Positions 1,412-64,000 of a stretch of DNA of 64,000 nucleotides are shown here, piece by piece; positions within the stretch are counted from its first letter, which is position 1, and every line of letters starts with the position of its first letter. The position numbers and the translations under genes are program-made. Under the pieces are notes generated by a model that did no database searches, had not been told where the DNA came from, and saw only the letters and a list, made by a program, of their open reading frames with translations. The DNA lies in contig NZ_CP013650.1 in NCBI RefSeq assembly GCF_001466725.1, positions 3,100,001 to 3,164,000 of the forward strand, read 5' to 3'. The stretch is from Lacimicrobium alkaliphilum. Lineage in GTDB: Bacteria; Pseudomonadota; Gammaproteobacteria; Enterobacterales; Alteromonadaceae.

Positions 1412-2236
1412 TCAGCTGCAACCCTTAAATGCACCTTTCAGAGTACTCTTGTCCAGCACGCTATAATGAGGGCGCTTCGCTGGTGTAGGATAGGCGGTGG
1501 TAGGAATAGGGTTAACAGGAATAGCCTGATTCAACAGGCCGGACTGCAACGCCAGGTCCTGAATTGCCACTGCAAAATCATACCAGCTTGCCACACCTGC
1601 ATCGGTGTAGTGATGCACCCCGCACACTTTGTCTCTGGCGGCCTGCAAACAGCAGGCGGCCAGACCGGTTACCGACGTAGGTGTGCCCACCTGGTCATCG
1701 ATCACATTCAATTCTGGCTTTTCTTTCATCAGCCTGAGCATGGTTTTGACAAAGTTATTGCCATGGCGGGAATACACCCAACTGGTGCGAACAATACAAC
1801 TGCTCTTGGCCCAGTGTTCAAGTATGGCCTTCTCCCCGGCTGCCTTACTGGCACCGTATACCCCCTGAGGGTTATGGGGATCATCCACTTTATAGGGTGA
1901 GCCCTTGTCACCGGCAAACACATAGTCGGTCGATACATGCACCAGATGGCATTTATTTGTCTTTGCAAAACGGGCAAGATTTTCCACGCTATGATGGTTT
2001 AGCTGATAAGCCTGCTGTGACTCCTGCTCTGCCAAATCCACTGCCGTGTAAGCCGAGGCGTTGATAATGGCAGCAGGTGAGAAACGACTGAGTACATCGG
2101 CCATAGCATTATAGTCACTGAGGTTGACCTGCTCCCTGCCGAGGAATCCCACTATTGCGGAATCGGCTAAACCAGCGAGCTCTTTTGCCAGTTGGCCGTT
2201 TCGGCCAATCACCAGAATTTTATCGTTCATCTTCAT
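1412..2236 (-). CDS. rfbD: dTDP-4-dehydrorhamnose reductase
   Basis: Last step of dTDP-L-rhamnose synthesis: NAD(P)H-dependent reduction of dTDP-4-keto-L-rhamnose. The 274-residue SDR protein has the nucleotide-binding motif IGRNGQLA near the N-terminus, the STDYVFAG segment and the YGASKAAGE catalytic motif. Its ATG overlaps the stop of rfbC by one base (TGATG), so the two are probably translationally coupled. A second in-frame ATG two codons later is an equally possible start. Confidence 0.95.
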   Translation of the reverse strand: MKMNDKILVIGRNGQLAKELAGLADSAIVGFLGREQVNLSDYNAMADVLSRFSPAAIINASAYTAVDLAEQESQQAYQLNHHSVENLARFAKTNKCHLVHVSTDYVFAGDKGSPYKVDDPHNPQGVYGASKAAGEKAILEHWAKSSCIVRTSWVYSRHGNNFVKTMLRLMKEKPELNVIDDQVGTPTSVTGLAACCLQAARDKVCGVHHYTDAGVASWYDFAVAIQDLALQSGLLNQAIPVNPIPTTAYPTPAKRPHYSVLDKSTLKGAFKGCS

Positions 2237-2781
2237 CAGAATGTGGGTGCATCGGTAAAAGGCAAACCCTTATCATCTTTTTCTGACAACGACGGCGGTT
2301 GCCCATTGACCAGCGGCCAGTCAATATTCAGAAGTGGGTCATCGTAGCGAATACTGACCTCTGACTGAGGGTGATAGTAATCGGTACATTTATAAACGAA
2401 CTCTGCGGTCACCGATGTGACATAGAAGCCGTGGGCAAAACCAGCAGGAACCCATAGTTGACGATGATTCTCAGCCGACAGGAGCGTGCCAAACCATTGA
2501 CCAAACGTCGCTGAGTCTTTGCGCATATCGACAGCAACATCATAAACCTCACCCTGTACCACTCTGACCAGCTTCCCCTGGGTTTTCTCTTGCTGATAAT
2601 GTAAACCGCGCAGGATCCCCTGCCGGGATTTACTGTGATTATCCTGCACAAAGTCTACATCGGCACAATGCTGTCTGAACCAGTCGTCACGATAGGTTTC
2701 GAGAAAAAAACCGCGTTCGTCACCATATACTTTCGGTTGAATAAGTTTTACATCGGCAATTGGAGTGTCTATTACTTGCAT
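2236..2781 (-). CDS. rfbC: dTDP-4-dehydrorhamnose 3,5-epimerase
   Basis: Cupin-fold epimerase that isomerises dTDP-4-keto-6-deoxyglucose at C3 and C5, the third step of the rhamnose pathway. The 181-residue protein shows the family's RGLHYQ segment with the catalytic His, the VPAGFAHGF strand and the KCTDYYHPQSE segment with the conserved Tyr. It starts six bases after the rfbA stop and overlaps rfbD, so the four genes form one transcription unit. Confidence 0.96.
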   Translation of the reverse strand: MQVIDTPIADVKLIQPKVYGDERGFFLETYRDDWFRQHCADVDFVQDNHSKSRQGILRGLHYQQEKTQGKLVRVVQGEVYDVAVDMRKDSATFGQWFGTLLSAENHRQLWVPAGFAHGFYVTSVTAEFVYKCTDYYHPQSEVSIRYDDPLLNIDWPLVNGQPPSLSEKDDKGLPFTDAPTF

Positions 2782-2787
2782 GATTGA

Positions 2788-3672
2788 CTACTTCACCTTG
2801 TCGTGGAGAATTTGCATCAGATAATCACCATAGCCGCTTTTGACCAGCGGCCGCGCCAGTTGCTCCAGTTCAGTCGCAGTGATATACCCCTTGCGGTAGG
2901 CGATTTCCTCAGGGCACGCTATTTTCAGCCCCTGGCGTTTTTCTATGGCGGCAATAAAATTGGATGCATCCAGCAGGCTGTCCATGGTACCGGTATCCAG
3001 CCACGCGGAGCCTCGGCCCATTAATTCAACCCTGAGTCTGGCCTGTTGCAGATAAAGAAGATTCAGATCAGTGATTTCCAGCTCGCCGCGTTTTGAGGGC
3101 TTAACCTGTTTGGCCAGTTCCACCACATTATTGTCATAGAAATACAGCCCAGTTACCGCGTAGCGGGATTTAGGCTTAACCGGCTTCTCTTCTATAGACA
3201 GAGCGTTCCAGTTATCATCAAACTCGACAACACCATAGCGCTCCGGGTCATTGACGTGATAGCCGAATACCGTCGCCCCTTCGGTCTGCTTTGATGCATT
3301 CATCAGCGCAACCTGCAGATCATGGCCGTAATAGATATTGTCACCCAGTACCAGGGTACAGTGATCATTGCCGATAAAATCTTCACCCAGAATAAAGGCC
3401 TGAGCCAGACCATCGGGTGATGGCTGAACGATGTAACTGAAGTTAATCCCCCAGTGACTGCCGTCTCCCAGTAAGGCCTGGAATCTGGGTAAGTCGTCCA
3501 CCGTGGAGATAATCAGTATATCCCGGATACCAGCCAGCATCAGAGTGGAGATGGGATAGTAAATCATTGGCTTGTCGTAGACCGGCATCAGTTGCTTGCT
3601 GATAACCTGAGTCAATGGATGAAGCCTGGTACCGGAACCTCCGGCCAGCACAATACCTTTTCTTTTACTCAT
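2788..3672 (-). CDS. rfbA: Glucose-1-phosphate thymidylyltransferase
   Basis: First enzyme of the rhamnose pathway; makes dTDP-glucose from glucose-1-phosphate and dTTP. The nucleotidyltransferase signature [11 protein letters not shown] and the [11 protein letters not shown] motif are near the N-terminus. I place the start at the ATG at 3672 (protein begins [12 protein letters not shown]), which gives 294 residues and matches typical RmlA. The frame stays open upstream with an ATG at 3699 and a TTG at 3708, so the start is uncertain by up to 12 codons; the 3699 ATG has AAGGAT only two bases before it. The gene begins just after the KpsE-like gene's stop. Confidence 0.95.
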
Positions 3673-3713
3673 AAGGGCCTGCTTTACTGTCTGTGTCATA
3701 TCCTTCAACAGAG

Positions 3714-5180
3714 TTATTGAAGCTCGTTCACTGTGGCGCGAATGATACTGCCGATCCCGAAGATCATCAGGATCACCGCTAAAAACAGCGAAAGATTGTA
3801 TAGGATACTGGGGTATTTTGCTTCTTCCGGCAGGGTCGGTGACTCGACCACAACCAGATACTTAAGCTGACGATAGGCTTCTATCCGGGATTTCTCCAGC
3901 GAAACCTGTGAGCTGGCCAGGGCTTCTACTGCAAATTCCAGGTCCATCCTCAGATTACCGAAGTTTGCCAGTATTTCATTGACCCCCATTTCACCAGATA
4001 CATCAGTCAGTTCTATATCCTGTGTCAGCCTCTGACGTTCATCAATAAGTTGCTGTCTGAGACTGTCCAGTTGTTCTTTTAACTGCATCACCATTGGCGC
4101 ACTCTCGCTCATGCTGGAGCGCAGCGCTCTTAGCTCGGCCTGCTTATTGGCTATCTGAGCTTCAAGACCATAGGCTATTTGCTGTAGTGCCATTCCTTCA
4201 GCTTCAGGATCAAGCAAATTATACTTACGCTGGAAGGCCAGGATTTCAGACTTTGCTTTTTGCAACCTTTCCTCGACCATAGCATGTTCATTCTGGACAA
4301 ATGCAAGTTGTGCCTTGGCCAGATCATGACCGACCTTATTGATGTACCATTCTGCTCGATCAACAATGGTTTCGGTCAGCGTTTTGGCAAATTCCGGAGT
4401 ATATCCCTGCACCCTGACGGTAATGATCTTTGAGTTCTGGTCAACCTCCACAACCACCCGCTTCTTAAAGTAATCAAGTTTATCTTCCCGGCTGGCAGAA
4501 GCTGACAGCCGGCTGAATATATCGTATTCATCACTGTTGTAATGGGCGAAAATATCCAGCTCCTGCTGCAGGTATTCAACTAAGTCGGTTGAATAGATAA
4601 AGGCTTCAACAAGAGATGTATCGGAACTGCCGCTGCCGCCGGTAAAACCGGAAAGCATTGCCATGGCAGGTTCCAGCGTCGCCATACCGTTAGGTTGCTG
4701 CACAATCAGCTGTGCCTGGCTCTCAAACCTGTCACTAGCCCAGATCACTTGATAAAAAGCGAACAACAGAAACGGCATCAGCACACAAATGCTGATCGGC
4801 TTTTTCAGCCAGCTAACAAGTCGCTCGGTGAAGGTTGGGACCTGAGCCTGTGCCGGTTCACTGACCTCCTGCGCTGACTCCATCGCGTCACTGACAGTCT
4901 CAGGCGCGTCGGCTTCCTTTGATGAACTGCGCATGACCTCGGGGTTAGATTTTTTCAGCTCGCGATTAAGGCTGGCAATTTTTTGCTGCGCCTCCTTTGA
5001 ATCGGGATTAAGTACTCTGGCACGCTGGAAAACCCGCAATGCCAGAGCAGGATCGGTATATTCCAGTTTCTCTGCCTTGGCCATCAGGATATCGTGATTC
5101 AGCCAGTCTCCCGCTGCCAGCTTTTCCTGTTTGTAGGCTTTTAATCTGGCTTCAAGTTCATGCTGGGCATGTTGTGTCAT
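3714..5180 (-). CDS. kpsE: Capsule export inner-membrane protein (KpsE/CtrB/BexC-like)
   Basis: Polysaccharide co-polymerase-type protein of ABC-transporter-dependent capsule export, linking the KpsMT transporter to the outer-membrane channel. The 488-residue protein has two membrane segments (about residues 132-150 and 458-480) bracketing a long periplasmic coiled-coil region, as expected. Unusual is a cytosolic N-terminal extension of about 125 residues, containing one TPR-like helical pair (around '[17 protein letters not shown]') and an acidic linker before the first membrane segment. It lies three bases after kpsT and just before rfbA. Family assignment is by architecture; the exact orthologue name is less certain. 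Confidence 0.8.
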
Positions 5181-5182
5181 GG

Positions 5183-5833
5183 TTATAATGCCTGATAATG
5201 CTTAATGCCTTCTTCAAGGTCATTGTAAAAAGTTAAATCGCCCTTGCTCAACACAATGGCACTGTCGCAGAACTGCCTGAGTTCCTTCATATCGTGGCTG
5301 ACCATGATCACATTGGCCTTCTCACTGCGCTCAAACAAGGCTTTTTTTGCCTTGCGACGAAAAGATGCATCACCTACTGATGTCACTTCGTCAATCAGAT
5401 AAACCTCGAAATCTATGGCAATGGAACAGGCAAAGGCCAGCCGCGGGCGCATGCCGCTAGAGTAAGTTTTAACCGGCAGATCATAGTGCTGGCCAAGCTC
5501 GGCGAATTCCTTGACCCGATCTTCGTAGGCGCCAAGATCGGCAACGCCGTTAATCCTGCCAATAAAACGGGTATTCTCTCTGCCCGTCATCTGCTGGTGG
5601 ATCCCGGTAGATAATGCCACCGGCCATGAAATACTGAGATCGGTGGTTATTTTACCTTTGTTTGGATATTCGCTACCGGCAATCAAACGAAATAAGGTCG
5701 ATTTACCGGCACCGTTAGCACCGAGTATGGCGATATTGTGGCCTCCGGGGATCTCAAAGTTCAGATTCCGGAAAATATACTGATGCCCAAGCGCCGAATG
5801 GTAGTACTTGGTAATATTTTCAAGCAGAATCAT
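5183..5833 (-). CDS. kpsT: Capsular polysaccharide ABC transporter ATP-binding protein
   Basis: ATPase that powers export of a lipid-linked capsule or O-polysaccharide through the KpsM permease. The 216-residue protein has Walker A GANGAGKST (about residue 38), an SSGMRPRLAF signature region, Walker B VYLIDEV and the switch His in MVSHDM. The short form, without a C-terminal carbohydrate-binding domain, fits the KpsT/CtrD group rather than Wzt. The start overlaps the end of kpsM by four bases (ATGA). Confidence 0.92.
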   Translation of the reverse strand: MILLENITKYYHSALGHQYIFRNLNFEIPGGHNIAILGANGAGKSTLFRLIAGSEYPNKGKITTDLSISWPVALSTGIHQQMTGRENTRFIGRINGVADLGAYEDRVKEFAELGQHYDLPVKTYSSGMRPRLAFACSIAIDFEVYLIDEVTSVGDASFRRKAKKALFERSEKANVIMVSHDMKELRQFCDSAIVLSKGDLTFYNDLEEGIKHYQAL

Positions 5834-6615
5834 CTACTTATCGCCTGTTTCCAGAACCCCTGATAACAGACCAACGCGAGAAACAGGGCGATAAGGCTGG
5901 AAATCAACAGGTAGCTGACGCTCACACCCTCTTGCCCGTAGGAAGGATAAGCAGCAAATCTCGCCAGCTCAATGGCATGCAGAATAGGATTCCAGTTCAA
6001 CAAGTACCAGTATTCCTCGGGAAAGTCCTTGAGTGAGAAAAAAACTCCGGAAATAAAGAACATTGGCCGCGTTAGCAGCATCTGAATTTTTTCCACTTCA
6101 GGAATATACAACGCGGCAAGACCGAACAGAAATCCCACAGACAGCGCAAATAACCATAATGATAAGAAATACAGCAGAATGCTCAGAGGGTCAGCAAGCT
6201 GGGTTTCCATGCCGATAAAATACAGTATCAACGCAATACCCATCACCACAAACAGTTTAACGATAAACTCAAACATGCCCGCTGCGATAACCGCGCTGAT
6301 AGGCTGAACCTGACGAAAAGCGAACAGCGCTTTATTCTTTTTAATTGCAGAGGCTCCGGCAGACAACGTCTGCAGAAAGCTCTGGATCAGAATCATGCCA
6401 AAGGCGATAAAGATAAAGGTCGGTATTGTATGGGTTTCACCACTGTCGAGCCGGCCTCTGATAAACGCCAGCACGAAAATAAACACCACCGGCTGCACGA
6501 CAGCCCAGCTGATACCAAACTTATCGTTAAAACCCACACGTATTTCACGGGCGAAAAGGGCAAAAATGACATCCCGCCAGATTTCCCATTTATTTCGCTT
6601 TAATACCGTGGTCAT
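5830..6615 (-). CDS. kpsM: Capsular polysaccharide ABC transporter permease
   Basis: ABC-2 type membrane subunit of the polysaccharide exporter. The 261 residues contain about six hydrophobic segments, and the N-terminal region 'REIRVGFNDKFGISWAVVQP' is typical of KpsM/Wzm proteins. It overlaps kpsT by four bases and begins about 20 bases after the stop of the outer-membrane exporter gene, so export genes and rhamnose genes form one long minus-strand operon. Confidence 0.92.
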   Translation of the reverse strand: MTTVLKRNKWEIWRDVIFALFAREIRVGFNDKFGISWAVVQPVVFIFVLAFIRGRLDSGETHTIPTFIFIAFGMILIQSFLQTLSAGASAIKKNKALFAFRQVQPISAVIAAGMFEFIVKLFVVMGIALILYFIGMETQLADPLSILLYFLSLWLFALSVGFLFGLAALYIPEVEKIQMLLTRPMFFISGVFFSLKDFPEEYWYLLNWNPILHAIELARFAAYPSYGQEGVSVSYLLISSLIALFLALVCYQGFWKQAISR

Positions 6616-6635
6616 ATCAGCAGGCCCGCTCCGGA

Positions 6636-8411
6636 TTAATTCGAGTCTAGAGCGACATTCGCTGCCAGCGCAACCTGATAAATGATTTGCGTGATATCTT
6701 TGATACTCTGGATCAGCTTGGTATCAACTCTGGGCAAGACCATAATCTGATCTCCTGGCCGAATCTGTGCTTCAGAAGCACTGGAAAACCAGTGGCTGCT
6801 ACCGCCGGTTTCGAAGAAAGTCGTCAGGCCATTAGCATGGATCACTGCGATTCTCTCATCGTCGGCCCGTTCACTGTAACCACCAGCCCACGCAACATAA
6901 TCAGTCAGCCTGGCTTCAGAGTTGTAAACCACCGCCTGAGGCATCAGCACTTCACCGGAAACCTGAACCAGATCGGTTTTCAGCGGTATGACAATTTCAT
7001 CGCCTTGCTCCAGACGTATATTGGCAATCCTGCCCTGTTCGGAGAGCACCACTTTACCCAGCGGCTCAACCTGCTTTGCCCGCTCGACAAAGCGCATAAC
7101 CAGATCGGCCTCCTGAGCACGAATACGGGCTTCACCATCAGAGGATGCCGGAGCAGTAAACACGCTTCTTTCAAGCCGCCTGAGAGACTCGTCCAGCAAT
7201 TCCCGTTGTTTGGCTTTCACACTTTCCCGTTTGATATAAATAGAGTCTATATCCGCGTGCTCTGCATCCACTTCAATATGAGGCAACAGATCCAGCAACC
7301 GGGCATCTTTTTTTACGGTATAGAAAGAAGGACCAATGTAGCTGCCGGATACTTTAACGCTGATCACCTGAGGCTGCAGATCGTCATTAAACAGCACCAC
7401 ATCCCCATCATAAATATCGAAGTCTTCAAATTCTGAAAACGGAACATAGACAGAAACCGGCCCATCAGGACGGTTACCGGTAATCGCCACATGGCTGGTT
7501 TTTGCCAGAGGTCTGGAGAAATAGGTAAGATCTGAGCCTCTGGAGCGCTGTTCTGTTAACTCGAAACGGTAAGGGTAACGGGCGGCACCTTCGACTGTTA
7601 CCATGGGTCCCTGCTCGTTTACCAATATCACATCACCATCTTTGAAAGAAAAGGGTGGTAACCGGCCTTCACGCATAAACTCGTACAGGTCATATTCCTG
7701 CACACTTTGATTGTTACGCAGCACGCTAATCTTTCGGTAGCTGCCACGCACCGGATCGACGCCACCTGCACGTTTAAGAAAATAGAGAATAGAATCTGTC
7801 GGTAACCCTGCATATTGCCCCGGCCGTATTACCGGCCCGGCCACAAACACGCTGACAGGGGTCGCCGTTAGCAGATTGACATAGGCATTGACATTATTGG
7901 TATAGACCGAGCGAATTTTCGTCTTAACAACCTGATTAACTTCAGTGGCAGGCACGTCCATTACCTGTACGGGCCCAATCTGCGGAATAAAGATATTGCC
8001 CTGGTTATCTACCGTCAGTACTTCTGCCAGCTCGACTGTGCCCCAAAGCTGCACAGAAATCTTATCACCCGGCGCAACCCGATAAGCCGGATTAAAACCA
8101 TCGCTACGTTCTGCTTCAAAACTGCCATCAAAAAGATTGGCACCAAAAGGACGTATGTTCTGACTTGCACCAGATTCGCCATTCCTGCCCGGCGTTACGC
8201 CCTCAGAGCCCGGAGATCTCTTAAAGCGACTTTCACTCTGAATATATCGGGACACATCGACTTTCTGAGCATCAGCCGCCTGCCGGGCCTGCTGAATTTG
8301 CTGCATCTCTTCAAGGCTTTGGGCCTCGACCTTATGACCGGATAACAGACCAGCCAGAATCAGGGTATAGCAAAAGAATGTATGGAGCTGATTGAGAAGT
8401 GATTTAACCAT
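6636..8411 (-). CDS. kpsD: Outer-membrane polysaccharide export protein (Wza/KpsD-like)
   Basis: Periplasmic/outer-membrane exporter that completes the capsule export path. The 591-residue protein has an N-terminal signal sequence (hydrophobic stretch ending near VEAQS), a Poly_export domain around residues 105-195 ('AYRVAPGDKISVQLWGTVEL'), then several SLBB-like repeats to the C-terminus. The lack of a lipobox Cys at the signal end is closer to KpsD than to Wza. It overlaps the stop of the preceding small lipoprotein gene by eight bases, suggesting translational coupling. kpsC/kpsS homologues, expected for a true group-2 capsule, are not in the window. Confidence 0.87.
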   Translation of the reverse strand: MVKSLLNQLHTFFCYTLILAGLLSGHKVEAQSLEEMQQIQQARQAADAQKVDVSRYIQSESRFKRSPGSEGVTPGRNGESGASQNIRPFGANLFDGSFEAERSDGFNPAYRVAPGDKISVQLWGTVELAEVLTVDNQGNIFIPQIGPVQVMDVPATEVNQVVKTKIRSVYTNNVNAYVNLLTATPVSVFVAGPVIRPGQYAGLPTDSILYFLKRAGGVDPVRGSYRKISVLRNNQSVQEYDLYEFMREGRLPPFSFKDGDVILVNEQGPMVTVEGAARYPYRFELTEQRSRGSDLTYFSRPLAKTSHVAITGNRPDGPVSVYVPFSEFEDFDIYDGDVVLFNDDLQPQVISVKVSGSYIGPSFYTVKKDARLLDLLPHIEVDAEHADIDSIYIKRESVKAKQRELLDESLRRLERSVFTAPASSDGEARIRAQEADLVMRFVERAKQVEPLGKVVLSEQGRIANIRLEQGDEIVIPLKTDLVQVSGEVLMPQAVVYNSEARLTDYVAWAGGYSERADDERIAVIHANGLTTFFETGGSSHWFSSASEAQIRPGDQIMVLPRVDTKLIQSIKDITQIIYQVALAANVALDSN

Positions 8412-8787
8412 TTTCAGGGCTTCCCTCTCGATACGTCGCTATAACCGGCCTGGTAAAGTGCCATCGCTCATCATGCTTATTTTTACACATAGCAGTGCCT
8501 TTATCCGACTCTTCATCAGCTGTCTTCCAGTTTAATTTACGGCAAGGTGTTCCTATAGCAGAGAAGTATTTCTTCCCCACAGAGACGACACGATCTCCGA
8601 CACTGACGTCTGTGCCATCCGGGACAATTAAGATTTTTGTGGCAACTGAGTGAGGTACAGCTTCGTAAGCAGCAGCAGGATTACCAAGCACCAGGCGAGT
8701 GCTGGCAACAGGTTGGTTAACTTTGTTGGCACACCCCACAACCAGTAATGTGAGCAGGGCTGCACATAAATTCTTATCAATATGCAT
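8404..8787 (-). CDS. Small lipoprotein of the capsule export operon
   Basis: Hypothetical 127-residue protein. The N-terminus has a lipoprotein signal with lipobox LVVGC (Cys19), so it should be lipidated. The rest is soluble, contains two further Cys, and matches no family I recognise. It is the first gene of the minus-strand export operon and overlaps the kpsD-like gene by eight bases. An accessory role for the exporter channel is plausible from position, but this is inference. Confidence 0.7.
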   Translation of the reverse strand: MHIDKNLCAALLTLLVVGCANKVNQPVASTRLVLGNPAAAYEAVPHSVATKILIVPDGTDVSVGDRVVSVGKKYFSAIGTPCRKLNWKTADEESDKGTAMCKNKHDERWHFTRPVIATYREGSPENG

Positions 8788-8913
8788 CGGAATCAGCTTA
8801 TTCTTATTGTTTGCTTGCGCGCCGGAGCCGTGAGCTCCAATGCCGGGCAGTATACATCACAGCGACAAAGATAAAAACGCGTGAAATATAGTCAGCTAAA
8901 GAGGTTCGGATGT

Positions 8914-9993
8914 TCAGGAGACCTGTATGTCTGACTTTCCGAACCGTCTTAGCCTGCGCAGTATGATCCAGATATTCTGAATAACATAACTGTAAATCAC
9001 CAGCAGTAGCAGAAATGCCCAGAACATAATGTATTCAGGAACGTTAAGCATTTCACCGGCAATACCCACCAGTGCATACATACTTCCCAGCAACAGGATG
9101 GCAACCAGTGACTTGTTGGAAGACAGGCCTGCACGAATAAAAATATTGTGCAAATGTTGTCTGTCTGGTTTTAACACGGATTGTCCTTTACGGGCCCTGC
9201 GATACATAATGGCTGCCATATCCATTAGCGGAAGGCCAATTAGCCAGACTGCTGTAATGGGGCGCATTGCGGGTTGAGTACCCTGAGTATATTCCACCAG
9301 CAACCAGACTATGGTCAGGCCGATAAACATACTGCCTGAATCCCCCATAAAGATCTTATTACCTTTAAAACCCTTTATACTGAGATTAAATGCCAGAAAT
9401 GGAACTAATGCAGAAATGACCAGTACCGGACCCATTATGGCTGCGCCATTTTGAGATACCAGCAGCAGAAATACCACACTCAGCAAAACAACAAGGCTCA
9501 TCCCTCCGGCCAGACCATCGATACCATCAATCATATTGAACGCATTGATCACGCCGACAACACAAACCAGAGTCAGAAAATATCCGGCCAGCCCCAGATT
9601 AATCTCTCCGAAACCTATTAAATCGCCGAGCGAGGTCAGGTAATTCTGTGCGCTCCAGGCCATAATCGCAGCAACACCGAACTGAAAGGCAAGGCGCCCT
9701 TTGGCACTCAGATCAAATCTGTCATCCAGCATGCCTAACGTCACGACAACAGCAGCAGCAGTAAAATACTGTGGATCATTCTTCAGCCAATAGTCAGTCA
9801 CAAAACTGGCAACCAATATGGCTACAAACATCGCTAATCCGCCAGTCAGCGGAACAATACCTTTATGATTTTTACGATAGTCAGGCTGGTCAACCAGCCC
9901 CCATTGATGGGCGACAGGAGTCATGACAACCAGGAGCAGCAATGCCACAAAAAACGCGGTGAAAATGGGCATAAATTGAAGATGGGTAAACAC
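8914..9993 (-). CDS. wecA: Undecaprenyl-phosphate sugar-1-phosphate transferase (WecA family)
   Basis: Polytopic membrane enzyme of the MraY/WecA family that starts glycan synthesis by moving a sugar-1-phosphate (usually GlcNAc-1-P) from UDP-sugar to undecaprenyl phosphate. The 359-residue protein shows about ten or eleven membrane segments and the family's catalytic motifs: DDRFDLSAKGR, NAFNMIDGIDGLAGG, MGDSGSMF and the RQHLHN loop. It has its own upstream region of about 400 bases and likely its own promoter, and sits upstream of the export operon. The family is certain; the exact sugar is inferred. Confidence 0.88.
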   Translation of the reverse strand: MFTHLQFMPIFTAFFVALLLLVVMTPVAHQWGLVDQPDYRKNHKGIVPLTGGLAMFVAILVASFVTDYWLKNDPQYFTAAAVVVTLGMLDDRFDLSAKGRLAFQFGVAAIMAWSAQNYLTSLGDLIGFGEINLGLAGYFLTLVCVVGVINAFNMIDGIDGLAGGMSLVVLLSVVFLLLVSQNGAAIMGPVLVISALVPFLAFNLSIKGFKGNKIFMGDSGSMFIGLTIVWLLVEYTQGTQPAMRPITAVWLIGLPLMDMAAIMYRRARKGQSVLKPDRQHLHNIFIRAGLSSNKSLVAILLLGSMYALVGIAGEMLNVPEYIMFWAFLLLLVIYSYVIQNIWIILRRLRRFGKSDIQVS

Positions 9994-56292: not shown

Positions 56293-56369
56293 GGCCCTTT
56301 AGCTCAGTTGGTTAGAGCACCCGACTCATAATCGGTAGGTCCCCAGTTCAAGTCTGGGAGGGGCCACCA
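56293..56369 (+). tRNA. ileX: tRNA-Ile2 (anticodon CAT, read as lysidine-AT)
   Basis: A 77-base cloverleaf with encoded CCA: acceptor GGCCCTT/AGGGGCC, D-arm GCTC/GAGC, anticodon loop CTCATAA, T-arm CCCAG/CTGGG. The CAT anticodon together with the GGCCC acceptor end and GACTCATAATC anticodon arm matches the minor isoleucine tRNA (lysidine-modified) rather than Met tRNAs. Sequence character changes right after its 3' end, so it is probably the insertion site of the island that follows. Confidence 0.9.
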
Positions 56370-56426
56370 TCTTTAAAGGCTTCAAGCCGATAGCACTCAC
56401 TAACAAAAATTCAAAATCCTTATTTT

Positions 56427-56534: not shown

Positions 56535-58106
56535 ATGGATGAAATAAGAATTGAGGGATTGCGTTCCCTTCGTGATACTGGCTTGGTAAGCCTAAAACCA
56601 ATAACTATTCTGGTCGGCAACAACAGTTCGGGAAAAAGTACTTTCCTCAGAGCGTTTCCTTTACTTAGACAAAGTGTAGAGAAAAAAACAAGGGGACCTA
56701 TTCTTTGGAATGGATCTTACACTGACTTTGAATCTTTCGATACTTCACTTCACAAGAGTGACAACGAGGATAACAATAAAGACGCCAGAGAAATCTGCTT
56801 TACCTTCAAAATCCCAGCAAGAGACTTCAGGAGGGGTTACTACACTAATCAAAGATATCCATCTTATGAGAAGCCTATAGAGATAGATGCAAAAATATTT
56901 ATAAGACCTGCTAAAGACAAAAAAACCTGTTATACACACATATATGACATGAGTGTATTGGATCACAAGTTTAGCTTCACTTTAGATGAAGATGGAGTTA
57001 TAACTGACGTATCATCCTCAAAAATAACTTGGCCCCTAAAAAAGGCTCAACTGAAATATCAACAAAGTATTGCAGATAGCTTGTTGCCGGTACTTGCGAC
57101 CCCCAGAACTGGTATTTACTTTTCCGAATTAGGCGAAAATGATATTGTCCAAAACCTGTTTACCATTATCTCAGACAAAATCAAACTAGAGAGCGGTAGT
57201 TCTAGTGATACAAAATGTAGAAAGTTTACTCGTGTTTTGGTCGAGAACTATGGAGACTCCAACCATAAATTAAAGTTAATGAAACTCTTCAACTCTACTG
57301 CCAAGTGGACTAATCGAGTGCAAGAATGGAGTATTCATGATGAGGAATTTCAATACCTTTCATCTCTAATAGATCTCGTATACATATTGCGACAGTCATT
57401 TTATTTAAATCAGAAGATCAGTGAGGAGCTACGTGGAGTAAGGTATGTAGCACCGATAAGGGCGTCTACTGCAAGATACTATAGATATCAAGATTTGAGC
57501 GTCGATGAATTAGACCACTTAGGCGAAAATATAGGAATGTTCCTCTCAAACATTCCAAAAAGGTGGAAGAAAACTCTTGACGAATGGACTAGCAAGAAAT
57601 TTAATTTTGTAATAGACGATACAATGTCTATGAGCCATGTCGCAATCGGTATAAGGCATAGTGATTCTAGACACACTGACAATGTTGCCGACATGGGATT
57701 TGGCTACTCACAAATTCTCCCAATAATAATTCAGCTTTGGGCAGTTAGCTCTGGATATGAAAAAAGTAGAGAAAGCAGAGGGAATAAGAGTATTATTTTT
57801 GCGATCGAGCAGCCAGAGTTGCATCTACATCCGCTTATGCAAGCTAACTTATCTGTTGCCTTTTCTGAATCTGTAAAACTCGCTAGAGAAAACAAAATAG
57901 ATCTAAGGATAATTCTAGAAACTCACAGTCCCTCCCTGATTTCAAAGTTAGGAGATTTGATTGCCACTAATGAGTTCGATAATAGTGATTGCTCTGTAAT
58001 TCTATTTGAAAAGCAATCAGGTAGTCGGGAAACTCAGTTGAAATATTCATATTTTAATAACGACGGCGAGCTTAAAGACTGGCCGGTAGGCTTTTTCCAT
58101 TATTAA
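56535..58106 (+). CDS. AAA/ABC-type ATPase, first gene of a two-gene putative defence module
   Basis: 523-residue SMC/ABC-like ATPase of the OLD/AAA15-AAA21 group. Walker A GNNSSGKST at residues 28-36 follows 'FRSLRDTGLVSLKPITILV'-like start (residues 8-27). The C-terminal half has the Walker B/D-loop IEQPELHLHP (about 424-433) with Glu in place of the first Asp, and the switch His in LETHSPSL (464). The end, DGELKDWPVGFF, is like the tail of DUF3696-type ATPases. The gene is clearly more AT-rich than the chromosome upstream. It is one base from the TOPRIM-like gene. ATPase-plus-TOPRIM pairs such as PARIS (AriA/AriB) are anti-phage systems; defence function here is inference. Confidence 0.85.
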   Translation: MDEIRIEGLRSLRDTGLVSLKPITILVGNNSSGKSTFLRAFPLLRQSVEKKTRGPILWNGSYTDFESFDTSLHKSDNEDNNKDAREICFTFKIPARDFRRGYYTNQRYPSYEKPIEIDAKIFIRPAKDKKTCYTHIYDMSVLDHKFSFTLDEDGVITDVSSSKITWPLKKAQLKYQQSIADSLLPVLATPRTGIYFSELGENDIVQNLFTIISDKIKLESGSSSDTKCRKFTRVLVENYGDSNHKLKLMKLFNSTAKWTNRVQEWSIHDEEFQYLSSLIDLVYILRQSFYLNQKISEELRGVRYVAPIRASTARYYRYQDLSVDELDHLGENIGMFLSNIPKRWKKTLDEWTSKKFNFVIDDTMSMSHVAIGIRHSDSRHTDNVADMGFGYSQILPIIIQLWAVSSGYEKSRESRGNKSIIFAIEQPELHLHPLMQANLSVAFSESVKLARENKIDLRIILETHSPSLISKLGDLIATNEFDNSDCSVILFEKQSGSRETQLKYSYFNNDGELKDWPVGFFHY

Positions 58107-58107
58107 T

Positions 58108-59208
58108 ATGATTATTGAAATTGATAGCAGCGCTGTTGGCGCGCTCGAATCCAGCAAATCCAACACAAAACAGATGGTGGAGCTTTTCTCTGACGTTTTC
58201 ACTTCTATAGGCAGGGGTAATAATCTTTTTAGGATAAAAAAAGGTGATCTTTTAAAACTCTCAAAAGACTATAGACTTAGTGAGTTCCATAGAAATATAG
58301 CTAAAATTGAATCCAACCAAGCCACTTTTAGGGCAGCATTAGATGATGCCTTCGACTTTAAAGTTAAAATATATCATTCTGATTTCGAGGCTAATTTAAA
58401 GGAAAATGACATTAACATAGATGTGAAAAACTATAGTGATCTAAAACAAAACTATGAAATTAGCTTCCTCGATAAACCAATTGTTGTTTTCGAAAATCTC
58501 ACTGACAATAAGATATATTCTAAAATAGCTGAATGGTTTATATCTAGTGTAGCTCACTTTAGAGGGTACAAAGTAAACTATGATGCATATCCAGGAGGAG
58601 GTGATAGCACACACTCAGTATGCAAGGAATTACTAGAAGAAGGGCGCATTGTATTTTCTCTAGTTGATAGTGACAAAAAGTACCCTGACGATCAAGTTGG
58701 AAAAACGGCGAAAGATACAATAGACGTATTTAAAAATGTAGGTTTTGATAATGCAGTATTAGTTGTAGGCGTCCATGAGGTGGAAAACTTAATCCCTCAC
58801 AGCGTTCTTGAAAAAATTGCAAGGAATGAGCAGAAACCATTAATAGATTTTCTTAAAGCTGCATCTCAACTTTGTGATATGGCGCCTAAGTTCTACGATT
58901 TGAAGAGCAGTTTCAGTTTCAATACTATTTTTGAAGACCAGCATAGTAATTTTTCTGGATATTGGAGACCTATCTTTGAAAATTGGAATGTTGATTACGA
59001 GACTGAGTTCCGGGAGTCTATTGATTTAGGAAAAAAGAAGCTTAATGGTAGAGTTTTGAATAAACTCAGCTCTATGCTCCCTCACGCCATCGAATCATTT
59101 TCGGTGCTTGAACCATGCAATTGTCCTCCGTATGTAGAAGATGAATGGAAAAAAATAGGCAATTTTTTGTTGGCGTGCGGTATAAGCTCTCAGCCGATTA
59201 GAATTTAG
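58108..59208 (+). CDS. TOPRIM-like protein, second gene of the putative defence module
   Basis: 366 residues, unrecognised as a whole. Residues 124-240 follow the TOPRIM pattern of OLD/DUF4435-type nucleases: a strand ending in Glu129 (IVVFENLTDNKIY), the acidic pair Asp187/Asp189 (FSLVDSDKK) and a later 'HEVENLIP' (223-230). The N-terminal 120 residues and the C-terminal 130 residues match nothing I know. The ATG begins one base after the ATPase stop, so translation is coupled. Strongly AT-rich. Most likely effector nuclease of the pair; the exact family needs a profile search. Confidence 0.72.
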   Translation: MIIEIDSSAVGALESSKSNTKQMVELFSDVFTSIGRGNNLFRIKKGDLLKLSKDYRLSEFHRNIAKIESNQATFRAALDDAFDFKVKIYHSDFEANLKENDINIDVKNYSDLKQNYEISFLDKPIVVFENLTDNKIYSKIAEWFISSVAHFRGYKVNYDAYPGGGDSTHSVCKELLEEGRIVFSLVDSDKKYPDDQVGKTAKDTIDVFKNVGFDNAVLVVGVHEVENLIPHSVLEKIARNEQKPLIDFLKAASQLCDMAPKFYDLKSSFSFNTIFEDQHSNFSGYWRPIFENWNVDYETEFRESIDLGKKKLNGRVLNKLSSMLPHAIESFSVLEPCNCPPYVEDEWKKIGNFLLACGISSQPIRI

Positions 59209-59232: not shown

Positions 59233-60879
59233 TTAAAGCAAAGCGGGCCTGGACATCTGTACCTGCCATTGGTGTATACGGGTGATAAATTCCTTACCGG
59301 CGTGGATCACGCCTTTTAGCTTGTAGGCTATGGTGCCGTCAAACCAACTGGTTTTAATATCGCCGGTGTCCCGGTCATAGCCAAACTCAAAAAAGGGCCG
59401 TATACGCTGTTCACGGCGTTTACAGAATACACCGCCCATAGCCTGAGTATAACGGCACCATTTAGACTCATCAGCGGCCTTTCTGGCCTCTTCCAGCTCT
59501 GGAAATAGCTTCGATGCATTTTGCTTCATCCGGCGCAGTTCCCGCCATACAGTAACCGAAACCCCGCCAATCTGCTGAAACTGGCGAATGCCCCAGCACG
59601 AAGCCCAGGCTTCTACCCGCTGTGCGGCCTGTATGGGATCTTCCCCATAAACACCGGAATCCAGATTCTGACCATCAATATTTTTAGATACATACTTAGC
59701 CAGGTAGCCCGTGGCAGAACCTTTGTCAGGATCGATACGTTTAAAATCGCAGCGGTTTTCCTGTGCTCCGTCCTCATCACCATCTTCTTGCAGCGCATAA
59801 TGGAAAATCACTTCTTCAATCTCAGCCAACTGTTCAGGCAAAGCAAATAGCAAAATATGCCAGTGAGGCGTACCGTCATGCTGTGGCTCCGCCACTCTGA
59901 AACCGTAGGGCTGAATTGCACGCCTATGCAGCTCTGCCCGAATTCTGGCCCAAAGGTCACATAAATATTGCTGGGCCTGATAAGGCGTGGTCCGTTGCCA
60001 TTTAGGGTTAGGCTGGCCGGATTTACTAAATGCAGCATGATATTTCGACGGGCAGGTAATGGTGACAAACAATCCCTTATGGCCCATTTCCTCAGAGAGG
60101 TTTTCAAAGCCCCTCATACGGGTCATCAGTTCATTTTTACGATTTACCGGATTAGAGACATTCAGATCTGACAATTCTTGCAGGTTGTAGCTCTGGCCCA
60201 GTTCATTGGTGGCCTCAATAGCACTAAGCAACCGCTCAGCCCTGAGTTTTTGCTGCCGTCTGTGGCTAACCGTTAAATCACTGGCATAAATCCCCTTAAA
60301 CCGGTTTACCAGATTCAGGTTCAGACAAACCTCTTCCTGCGCTCTTGTATACAGCTTACGGAGTTTTCGTAGCCACCACTGCTGATCCTGCATCCTACGA
60401 ATACACCCGTATACGGTGATTTTGCCGTTTTGCGGTTCGGGGGGCCGAAGCCCTTTCCCGTATACGTAGCTTGCAAGCTCTTGGTATACGGGTTCCAGAA
60501 TTTCGCGCTCCTTTGACGTATCGCCGTATACGGAGCCTGTACCGGGGCTTCGTAGCGCCGTAGTACGGCATTTGTCGGCAAACATCTTGGCTACGCTGCG
60601 CAGACTGTGTTCGTCCATATCAAACTCACGAATGAGTTCTTCAGGCAGGATTTCCAAAAGCGCTGTAGTTTTTTCTCTGAGAAATCGATTTTTCTCTGGT
60701 CTGCTCGGCTGTTCACCGTAGAGCTCCAACAGTCGCTTTTGCAGTTTATAAGGGAATGGCTCCAACTGCTTTGCAACGTAGGCTCGATCATGAATATCAA
60801 TAACGCTGGCAAATTGTTCAATGGCCTGGCATTGCTCGCTCAGCACCTCATTCAATCTGTTATCCTGGAACCCATTCAT
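59233..60879 (-). CDS. Phage-type replication endonuclease (HUH, gene A-like)
   Basis: 548-residue rolling-circle replication initiator of the P2 gpA/phage replication endonuclease family. HUH motif at 339-341 (TPHWHILLF) and a Tyr motif GYLAKYVSKN (Tyr392, Tyr396) with the spacing of a two-tyrosine nickase. It is shorter than P2 A (about 760). Base composition is near the chromosome average, unlike the genes on either side. It overlaps the small ORF upstream by four bases and converges on the TOPRIM-like gene with only 24 bases between. Points to a phage satellite or prophage-derived island. Confidence 0.85.
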   Translation of the reverse strand: MNGFQDNRLNEVLSEQCQAIEQFASVIDIHDRAYVAKQLEPFPYKLQKRLLELYGEQPSRPEKNRFLREKTTALLEILPEELIREFDMDEHSLRSVAKMFADKCRTTALRSPGTGSVYGDTSKEREILEPVYQELASYVYGKGLRPPEPQNGKITVYGCIRRMQDQQWWLRKLRKLYTRAQEEVCLNLNLVNRFKGIYASDLTVSHRRQQKLRAERLLSAIEATNELGQSYNLQELSDLNVSNPVNRKNELMTRMRGFENLSEEMGHKGLFVTITCPSKYHAAFSKSGQPNPKWQRTTPYQAQQYLCDLWARIRAELHRRAIQPYGFRVAEPQHDGTPHWHILLFALPEQLAEIEEVIFHYALQEDGDEDGAQENRCDFKRIDPDKGSATGYLAKYVSKNIDGQNLDSGVYGEDPIQAAQRVEAWASCWGIRQFQQIGGVSVTVWRELRRMKQNASKLFPELEEARKAADESKWCRYTQAMGGVFCKRREQRIRPFFEFGYDRDTGDIKTSWFDGTIAYKLKGVIHAGKEFITRIHQWQVQMSRPALL

Positions 60880-61151
60880 GACCGGGTCTCACATCTGGCA
60901 ACATACTCCAGGCCATAATCGCTTAGCACAAAGCGGGACCATCGAATTCCAGCGTAGAACTCCTCTTTTACATCAACCAATCCCCAACGAATCAGAGTAT
61001 AAAGAGAAGGCTTTGGATTACTCTGTGGTGGCTCTGAGGAACAGTTTATTTTGCCGAAACAACATCCCGGCTGAGTGCATAGCTCAACCCAGTTACCCTG
61101 ATTTAACCAGAAGATAAGATCTCTGACTTTTCGACATGGATTTTCCATCAT
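60876..61151 (-). CDS. Small protein between AlpA and Rep
   Basis: 91 residues with four Cys in the first 40 residues ('CRKVRDLIF...CTQPGCCFG...CS') and a C-terminal half that looks like a winged-helix end ('LIRWGLVDVKEEFYAGIRWSRFVLSDYGLEYV'). Overlaps both neighbours by four bases (ATGA on each side), so it is a real coupled gene. Function unknown; possibly a DNA-binding replication or control protein. Confidence 0.65.
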   Translation of the reverse strand: MMENPCRKVRDLIFWLNQGNWVELCTQPGCCFGKINCSSEPPQSNPKPSLYTLIRWGLVDVKEEFYAGIRWSRFVLSDYGLEYVARCETRS

Positions 61152-61378
61152 GCTACCTCCCCCGGATCCATCAGGTGCGATTGGCGATAGAAACTATCCA
61201 GCCAGGCATCCAAATCTTCTTTAAGGTATCTGATCGCCCTACCCACTTTGATAAATCGTGGTGCGGGAGTACGGCTATCCCGGTTTCCTTCCATACGCGC
61301 CTGGCGCAGAAAAGACCGGCTCATGCTGATATAGGCCGAAGCCTCAATTTCTGTAAATGCTCTTTTTTGTGTGTTCAT
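61148..61378 (-). CDS. AlpA-family/MerR-like helix-turn-helix regulator
   Basis: 76-residue DNA-binding protein. The pattern 'FTEIEASAYISMSRSFLRQAR...PRFIKVGRAIRYLKEDLDAWLDSF' is that of AlpA/excisionase-type (HTH_17) proteins, which in P4-like satellites and Gram-negative PICIs switch on excision and replication. AGGAG lies ten bases before the ATG. First gene of the alpA-orf-rep operon; the TTTCGCTT cluster at 61483-61640 sits upstream. Confidence 0.85.
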   Translation of the reverse strand: MNTQKRAFTEIEASAYISMSRSFLRQARMEGNRDSRTPAPRFIKVGRAIRYLKEDLDAWLDSFYRQSHLMDPGEVA

Positions 61379-62394: not shown

Positions 62395-62769
62395 TTAACT
62401 ATTTTGTGCAGGCACCTCACCAGTTTCAACAAAGTGAATGAATTGTTCCTCCCTTAGAAACTGCACTCCTTGAGCTTCTGCCTTCTCTATTTTCTTCGGG
62501 CCTGCATTCTCACCGCCAACAAGATAGTCTAGTTTTTGGGTCACCGAGGCTACTACCTTAAATCTATTATCATTTGCCAGATCAGTTAGTTCGTTTTTCT
62601 TGCTCACACCAAAACCAGTGAAACACACCTGGAGCCGGTTATCCTTTGCCTTTTTAGTGCGCATCGAGTAAATCATCTTCCACGCTTCAGCATCGGTCAA
62701 AGCAGCTATTTTTTCAGAGCTTAAATCGGACTTCGACTTTAGTATCATCGTTGGTTTTTCACTGGCCAT
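62395..62769 (-). CDS. BRCT-domain protein
   Basis: 124 residues from the ATG at 62769 (MASEKPT), which has AGAGGAT eight bases upstream; a longer frame to 62841 is less likely. The C-terminal 80 residues are a BRCT domain like that of NAD-dependent DNA ligases: 'LQVCFTGFGVSKKNELTDLA', 'VTQKLDYLVGGENAGPKKIEKAEAQGVQFLREEQF' (in part). BRCT domains bind protein partners or nicked/phosphorylated DNA ends. A free-standing BRCT protein in a mobile island is uncommon. No catalytic domain. Confidence 0.82.
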   Translation of the reverse strand: MASEKPTMILKSKSDLSSEKIAALTDAEAWKMIYSMRTKKAKDNRLQVCFTGFGVSKKNELTDLANDNRFKVVASVTQKLDYLVGGENAGPKKIEKAEAQGVQFLREEQFIHFVETGEVPAQNS

Positions 62770-62889
62770 ACGTTCATCCTCTTCCTGCCCGCAGTTCTTC
62801 GTAATGCATCCCTGCAGATTCATAACATTAATTAGCAACACTTTTGGCGAATTTATCTTTCTATTAAGTAAAGCGTCAATAGCTGCATA

Positions 62890-64000
62890 TCAGGTTTTCT
62901 CTTGGATATTTTTATCTTGTATCCTTTCGTAAATCTCTTGGTCGTATGACCTCACAACTAGCGCATGATGCGGAGACTCTTGCCCTATTATAAAAAGCAC
63001 CTCTTCCATAGCATTACCTAGTTTTTGAAGTACCTCTTTGTGAGGCCCGCCTTCACGGCGCATTTCCAAACACTCTAAAATTATTGCTCTTTGCTCAACT
63101 CCCTTTAACCCTCGAACGATATTCACCAATTCACAAACTGGACTATCAGCAAGTTTTTCAATACCATCTGGCAACACCACACCATCTGCAATTTCAGTTA
63201 GTATAGAAACTAAATTTTTATTATTTTTCTCACCTACTCTATCTCGGCATTTTTCGTAGAAAACATCATCAAGCGACACCCCGTTATATTTCTTTGGAAC
63301 ATCAAAATCTCTTTGCTCTCTTGAATGATTAAAGTACTCATCTATCAAGTGGTCAGCCTCCTTATTTCTTTCGAAATACCGCATTGCGGCGATAGAAGCT
63401 TGCAAATCATATGGCAGATTATATGGGATAGCGGCGAGTGATGTTTGGTAAACAGTATCTAGGGCCTCATCGACACTGATGTCGAATTCAGAATGAAGAT
63501 TTCTCAATGCTTTTTTTTGAGCTACAAGATATTCATGTTTACTTATCTCTTGTTTACGTTTCATAATCGCTTCTTGCAACTTGTCTCGCTCGAAGTAGCC
63601 TTGCAGGACTCCTTGGAGTACTGGTTTGTCGATATCACCAAAAAATTCATAACCAAGACTACTGAGAAGATTTTCATACTTTTTGTATTGAGTTTTTTCC
63701 TCACTCCCATTCTCGCCAAGATTGCCAAATAGTCTGCTCATCGAATTAACACCATACCTTTCAATGAACTGGATAGAAGGAATATTCTCAGGGTCGTGGT
63801 GATGGTGAATTTCAGACCATGTGAAGAGCACTAGCGACTGATAGATCTCTTGTTCCACAGTTTCATTAAAATTAAAGTCGAAACCTTCAAGCTCAGTCGC
63901 CATTCTCTTGATTCTAAACAATGTCCTCAGATTATTTATTTTAAGAGATATAGCGTGATTTTTTACCAAACCTTCGATACGATCTCCATCAAAGGCAATA
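62890..64000 (-). CDS. Hypothetical protein, 5' end outside the window
   Basis: The frame is open to the window edge; at least 369 residues are visible and the true start lies beyond base 64000. The visible part is helical, AT-rich, and begins 'DRIEGLVKNHAISLKINNLRTL', followed by 'HHHHDPENIPS' and a Lys/Glu-rich middle. The 'NLRTLFRIKRMATELE' region resembles the segment after the ATPase domain in KAP-type P-loop NTPases, but no P-loop is in view, so this is only a suggestion. Confidence 0.6.
   Translation of the reverse strand, partial: IAFDGDRIEGLVKNHAISLKINNLRTLFRIKRMATELEGFDFNFNETVEQEIYQSLVLFTWSEIHHHHDPENIPSIQFIERYGVNSMSRLFGNLGENGSEEKTQYKKYENLLSSLGYEFFGDIDKPVLQGVLQGYFERDKLQEAIMKRKQEISKHEYLVAQKKALRNLHSEFDISVDEALDTVYQTSLAAIPYNLPYDLQASIAAMRYFERNKEADHLIDEYFNHSREQRDFDVPKKYNGVSLDDVFYEKCRDRVGEKNNKNLVSILTEIADGVVLPDGIEKLADSPVCELVNIVRGLKGVEQRAIILECLEMRREGGPHKEVLQKLGNAMEEVLFIIGQESPHHALVVRSYDQEIYERIQDKNIQEKT

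Follow-up and report, generated by a model that had tools for sequence, protein, structure and literature searches.

What is the function of the two AT-rich genes that follow a tRNA gene with the anticodon CAT in the genome of Lacimicrobium alkaliphilum? They lie in a stretch of 64,000 nucleotides (contig NZ_CP013650.1, positions 3,100,001 to 3,164,000 of the forward strand; hereafter the window, whose first letter is position 1), and an initial annotation of this DNA proposed them as a candidate anti-phage system. Computational analysis shows that they encode an intact OLD/ABC-type ATPase (protein 1) and a partner predicted to adopt a TOPRIM nuclease fold (protein 2), which are very tightly linked and are located on a mobile carrier. 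Judging from their sequences, the two genes probably constitute an immune module that operates in the manner of PARIS and OLD systems and is distinct from PARIS. Bacterial immunity repeatedly makes use of ATPase-TOPRIM pairs; in this case the two halves appear to come from different known systems and to be tightly partnered, one to one, in distant bacteria and in their phages, here within a tRNA-borne element.

The gene pair and its linkage

The pair comprises the following two genes:

56535-58106, + strand: ATPase gene, 523 amino acids, OLD/ABC-type ATPase with a DUF3696-like tail
58108-59208, + strand: nuclease gene, 366 amino acids, N-terminal alpha/beta domain (residues ~1-120) followed by a TOPRIM region (~121-360)

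Just as the initial annotation described them, these are AT-rich genes (GC content 37.0%, versus 50.3% for the window) with a single base, 58107, between the ATPase stop and the nuclease start, and they begin 166 bases downstream of the tRNA gene (56293-56369). All the ATPase and TOPRIM motifs that it had named are present. Protein 1 contains GNNSSGKST, IEQPELHLHP and ETHS, and an alignment of 12 members shows no variation at residues G28, N30, G33, K34, S35, Q46, S392-Q393, I424-P433 and E462-S465. Protein 2 contains E129, D187, D189 and the HEVENLIP motif, together with D133, E226, D264 and K266 of the TOPRIM region; of these, E129, D187, D189 and E226 do not vary among 30 family members, nor among the 39 members of a partly overlapping set.

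The proposed coupling of the two genes is borne out by their operon linkage. In a nuclease-led search, the ATPase was found directly upstream in all eight cases (seven genome contigs and one viral contig). The ATPase itself was detected, at E-values up to 1e-60, in only five of the 394 genomes of the order, including that of the window, and the nuclease is adjacent in the other four of these (4/4). Among viral contigs, the ATPase profile retrieved 44 loci, and in all 34 whose ATPase is a near one (E up to 1.9e-94 with the profile) the nuclease is the next gene, at a spacing that ranges from a 101-base overlap (if the open reading frame is read at its longest) to a 16-base gap. These 34 loci form 30 clusters at 95% identity and 14 at 50%. 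One of them (L065) represents the same contig as L009, a member of profiles A2 and A5; the identical 34 loci were recovered by the profile of alignment A1 alone, which was built before any locus was fetched. The other ten viral loci comprise broken pieces of the pair (L072), a locus at a contig end (L075), a short pair of 403 and 313 amino acids with a shorter TOPRIM partner (L078), and seven loci with other partners. By eye, the latter partners are PIN-like (L074, L077) or PLD-like (L076, L079, L080, L081), with no class given for L073; the Pfam PIN domain reached only 0.043 with L074 and gave nothing with L077, and a Pfam scan of two of the PLD-like partners produced no match.

The pair is also found on a filamentous phage and on plasmids, where 33 records contain an ATPase match and the pair is present in all three that were read. 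Sixteen phage records have an ATPase match; among the three that were read, Pseudomonas phage 62-2 carries the pair, phage P2-EC5 has a different second gene beside the ATPase, whose PD-(D/E)XK match is weak (0.08), and Vibrio phage L9-1, a P2-type phage, encodes what looks like a complete Menshen system, with matches to NsnA, NsnB and NsnC (L020, 2616-6686). Remote kin of the ATPase (L073, L074, L076, L077, L079-L081 and L019) adjoin other nuclease-like partners, as judged by eye or from weak matches.

Affinities of the ATPase and of the nuclease

Protein 1 matches Pfam families AAA_15 (95.1 bits) and AAA_21 (67.7 bits) above their cut-offs and DUF3696 below it (18.7 bits, cut-off 22). It clears the ATPase thresholds for PARIS, which, according to PMC9122126, are 32 bits for AAA_15 or 27 bits for AAA_21, along with an adjacent DUF4435 gene at 27 bits or more. 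Among PADLOC models, the best match is to NsnB of the Menshen system (3.9e-44), followed by PDC-M55A (5.3e-32) and AriA of PARIS (8e-28), the last of these being a model as long as AAA_15. The NsnB match is split in two stretches, the better one covering positions 66-332 of 345, compared to 4.9e-103 over positions 1-344 for NsnB of the true Menshen locus of Vibrio phage L9-1; the PDC-M55A match covers the second half of the model (174-400 of 421). A phmmer search with protein 1 at E up to 10 listed two OLD rows and no AriA row.

In a first ATPase tree, the rows of TOPRIM pairs formed one clade, whereas those of PARIS and of OLD each did not. The second tree had 42 rows, including 22 ATPases with this kind of TOPRIM partner, seven kin with other partners and nine PARIS rows (AriA or AriA-part); it gained five two-gene AriA rows and left out three OLD rows (L033, L034, L035), the PLD row L079, the T rows L040 and L064, and four fused AriAB rows (L121, L122, L124, L125). 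Both trees drew long-branch warnings, with several rows on long branches; in the second, the 22 ATPases formed a single clade (support 96/88; 98% of 200 bootstrap trees), which joined the seven kin, including NsnB of the true Menshen locus (100/99), and the nine PARIS rows formed a separate clade (99/93). An approximately unbiased (AU) test rejected a tree in which the 22 rows and PARIS were forced into one group (p-AU 0.0056). The ATPase of the short L078 pair was found on a long branch among other DUF3696 kin, outside the 22-row clade. These placements put protein 1 outside the AriA clade.

Menshen is described in PMC10952713 as a three-gene system that includes the DUF262 protein NsnA; no DUF262/NsnA protein was found among the scanned neighbours of the pair, which is flanked by the tRNA gene and a gene for GPA-type replication protein. 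Likewise, protein 2 had no NsnC match in PADLOC at E up to 1. A search for the NsnC family in 185 genomes returned nothing, controls included, and is thus uninformative; other NsnC models do match the Menshen locus of the Vibrio phage. As for the OLD nucleases and Gabija GajA, the pair shares with them the TOPRIM fold and an OLD-type ATPase. However, OLD classes 1-3, as outlined in PMC10568477, combine ATPase and TOPRIM in a single chain, with GajB or retron parts added in classes 2 and 3, whereas in the window they are encoded by two open reading frames and no GajB helicase was seen among the scanned genes.

Absence of a TOPRIM fold from the predicted structure of protein 2 had been named in advance as a possible refutation. 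The fold was found: residues ~120-360 of the model align with OLD TOPRIM structures and, together with the Glu and Asp-x-Asp metal site, place the predicted protein in the TOPRIM superfamily. The initial annotation had regarded both the N-terminal and the C-terminal third as orphan, which holds for the former but not for the latter, as it falls within the OLD-TOPRIM-aligned region. For the N-terminal domain, a comparison with the PIN-like fold (fold match and acidic quartet) gave no clear assignment. Searches with protein 2 drew a blank in Pfam and NCBIfam (E up to 1) and in the PHROGs (E up to 0.1). In particular, neither it nor any of 30 relatives matches DUF4435 (E up to 1), so the defining DUF4435 threshold of PARIS is not reached. 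Against PADLOC at E up to 1, protein 2 matched only PDC-M55B (6.6e-8, positions 139-259 of 315) and, weakly, GajA. PDC-M55B matched 24 of the 30 relatives (E up to 0.1) and 20 of the 39 (E up to 0.001), with a best value of 2.7e-39 among the latter; the AriB model matched two and one, respectively, at the same thresholds, with a best value of 1.9e-6 (L015).

Profile comparison revealed a more distant relationship. In pairwise hhalign runs, whose figures are not database E-values, the TOPRIM profile of 62 relatives aligned with 13 DUF4435 proteins at 94.7% (E 6e-8, 90 columns), and Glu, Asp-x-Asp and the EN motif lined up; alignment to eight OLD TOPRIMs was weaker (33.8%, E 4e-4), and reversed controls reached at most 0.2%. 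The TOPRIM core of protein 2 is, on this profile evidence, a distant relative of AriB. A search of single-protein type in genome contigs found no relative, and a fold search against BFVD found nothing at E up to 0.001. Direct tblastn with protein 2 was also blank in the phage and plasmid collections; because both contain such pairs, the nuclease diverges too fast for this method. The names of solved structures returned by a single-sequence search were at chance level only, and those returned by a profile search, a designed inhibitor and a chloroplast subunit, were set aside.

Since the ATPase tree and the AU test separate protein 1 from PARIS while the TOPRIM profile matches DUF4435, the pair is best read as a predicted mosaic of a Menshen/DUF3696-type ATPase and an AriB-type TOPRIM protein. 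It resembles PARIS in its adjacent ATPase and TOPRIM nuclease genes, its DUF4435-related core and its occurrence on mobile elements. The split genes, the core being nearest to DUF4435 and the two AriB-matching relatives could be accommodated by a divergent PARIS, with AriA and an AriB that has acquired an N-terminal domain (the extra ~120 residues of protein 2). This explanation is quite improbable, given the lack of DUF4435 in protein 2 and its relatives, the separate clades and the AU test, and the failure of protein 1 to retrieve any AriA row. Of the parallel initially drawn with PARIS and OLD, the ATPase-plus-TOPRIM design and a kinship with OLD in the wide sense have stood, whereas membership in PARIS has not; of its two options, PARIS variant or separate type, the latter fits better because DUF4435 is missing and the ATPase falls outside the AriA clade.

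Run with PADLOC models, the defence-system check suggested for the pair yielded PDC-M55A/B, NsnB and AriA matches. Both window proteins match the two models of the PADLOC candidate PDC-M55, and most of the 30 nuclease relatives match PDC-M55B. The pair could belong to that candidate, perhaps as a longer subtype, a real possibility although one somewhat below an even chance. The window proteins are longer than the models and are covered only in part (the TOPRIM core and the second half of the ATPase), and the model lengths of 421 and 315 are closer to those of the L078 pair, whose ATPase lies outside the 22-row clade. Such membership would be compatible with an immune module, because the name says nothing about mechanism. 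Our literature search found no paper naming PDC-M55, none linking DUF3696 with phage defense and none on split or PARIS-like OLD systems; its scope excluded the main Menshen and OLD ABC-ATPase surveys.

Predicted function

If the pair is indeed an immune module, the ATPase would be both a scaffold keeping the TOPRIM protein inactive and a sensor of some trigger made by the phage, the part that Ocr-type proteins play for PARIS; ATP binding or hydrolysis would then free or rearrange the nuclease. The latter could then cut nucleic acid, either RNA, perhaps tRNA, which AriB cleaves according to PMC12409363, or DNA, as do OLD and GajA, and the infected cell would stop growing. PARIS requires both genes and both active sites, as stated in PMC9122126. 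Docking of the nuclease on the ATPase, or the choice of its substrate, may fall to its N-terminal 120 residues. The different partners of the ATPase kin hint at exchangeable effectors. If this lineage does change its effectors, with TOPRIM in the window pair and PIN-like, PLD-like or PD-(D/E)XK-like partners among its kin, the ATPase might sense phages in general and work with interchangeable nucleases. The pair would then represent a separate split-OLD immune type, common among phages and plasmids and across several bacterial phyla, with an ATPase of the Menshen/DUF3696 lineage and a TOPRIM protein of the AriB lineage that has a new specificity or docking domain, a proposal to which we give close to an even chance.

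Several observations weigh against a new mobile defence type. A number of chromosomal loci lack mobile character, and in cyanobacterial loci L003, L005 and L006 the pair has the same genes on either side and looks resident. In addition, an earlier description of this pair is possible. According to the BREX survey PMC12839542, operons of this kind were on record before PARIS, and OLD ATPases combine with alternative nucleases. The resident-looking loci, the adjacent replication gene of the element and the precedent of Cran1 would also suit a toxin-antitoxin-like or housekeeping nucleic-acid module that functions in repair, replication or element maintenance rather than in phage defence. We consider this unlikely in view of the patchy occurrence of the pair within the order, its presence in many viral contigs, in a filamentous phage and in plasmids, and the position of the ATPase kin within known or candidate defence systems. 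Should the predicted immune module prove to defend, the pair would make it possible to test which half sets the trigger and which the target, and swap-free comparison with PARIS and Menshen would separate the sensor lineage from the effector lineage; a profile of the pair could detect pairs left unnamed by Pfam, NCBIfam and PHROG scans.

The carrier element at the tRNA gene

The following features of the carrier were identified:

56293-56369, + strand: tRNA gene, anticodon CAT, the integration site; called tRNA-Met by ARAGORN
56324-56370, + strand: left att-like repeat (3' part of the tRNA gene), 46 of 47 bases recurring at 68093-68139
59233-60879, - strand: GPA-type rolling-circle replication protein, 548 amino acids (PF05840, 1.3e-86; phrog_91, 1.5e-161)
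61148-61378, - strand: small helix-turn-helix/excisionase-like protein, 76 amino acids (HTH_17, 9.4e-5, below cut-off; phrog_66, 2.7e-5)
62395-62841, - strand: BRCT-domain protein, 148 amino acids (PF00533, 4.8e-8; phrog_2561, 1.5e-30)
62890-64000, - strand: KAP-type NTPase, 578 amino acids, continuing past the window end (L010 7390-9126; PF07693, 2e-7)
L010 11177-12412, beyond the window: tyrosine integrase adjoining the right repeat (PF00589, 1.9e-32)

The tRNA is presumably of the Ile2 type. The right copy of the repeat (68093-68139 in extended window coordinates; L010 12593-12639) lies outside the window, 11.8 kb downstream. The repeat and the integrase confirm the mobile setting that had been proposed, but a P4-like carrier is not supported: ten proteins, eight of them other element genes, were compared to PHROGs, which matched integrase, GPA-type replication and excisionase-like families and gave no P4-type match, in a scan that did not target individual P4 markers. 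Nor did the ten proteins, a set that leaves out some small open reading frames, include a recognisable phage structural gene.

Genome G057 carries a sister element (L026 8481-16380) whose integrase is 75% and whose GPA replication protein is 47% identical to its counterpart in the window element; it has its own, much diverged pair directly after the integrase (33% identity for the ATPase, 18% for the nuclease). G272 (L152, reverse strand, 2172-9403) has the same gene and CAT tRNA as the window, followed by four other genes and a related replication gene. These two cases suggest a cargo slot. The gene neighbouring the tRNA is present in 11 of 39 family genomes, and the CAT tRNA in the fetched flank of three of the 11 loci, the window's own included. 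In G1069, the 18.5 kb inspected show no replication gene near it, and the locus is at most a candidate for an exact empty site.

One of the four G272 genes encodes a protein with a GHKL-ATPase-like start, as judged by eye. The BRCT protein of the window element is a stand-alone relative of the LigA C-terminus with a weak match to PADLOC PDC-S48 (2.4e-6). Next to the integrase, the element also encodes a 213-amino-acid protein with a PEP-CTERM motif (L010 10374-11015; 9.3e-6), an odd cargo.
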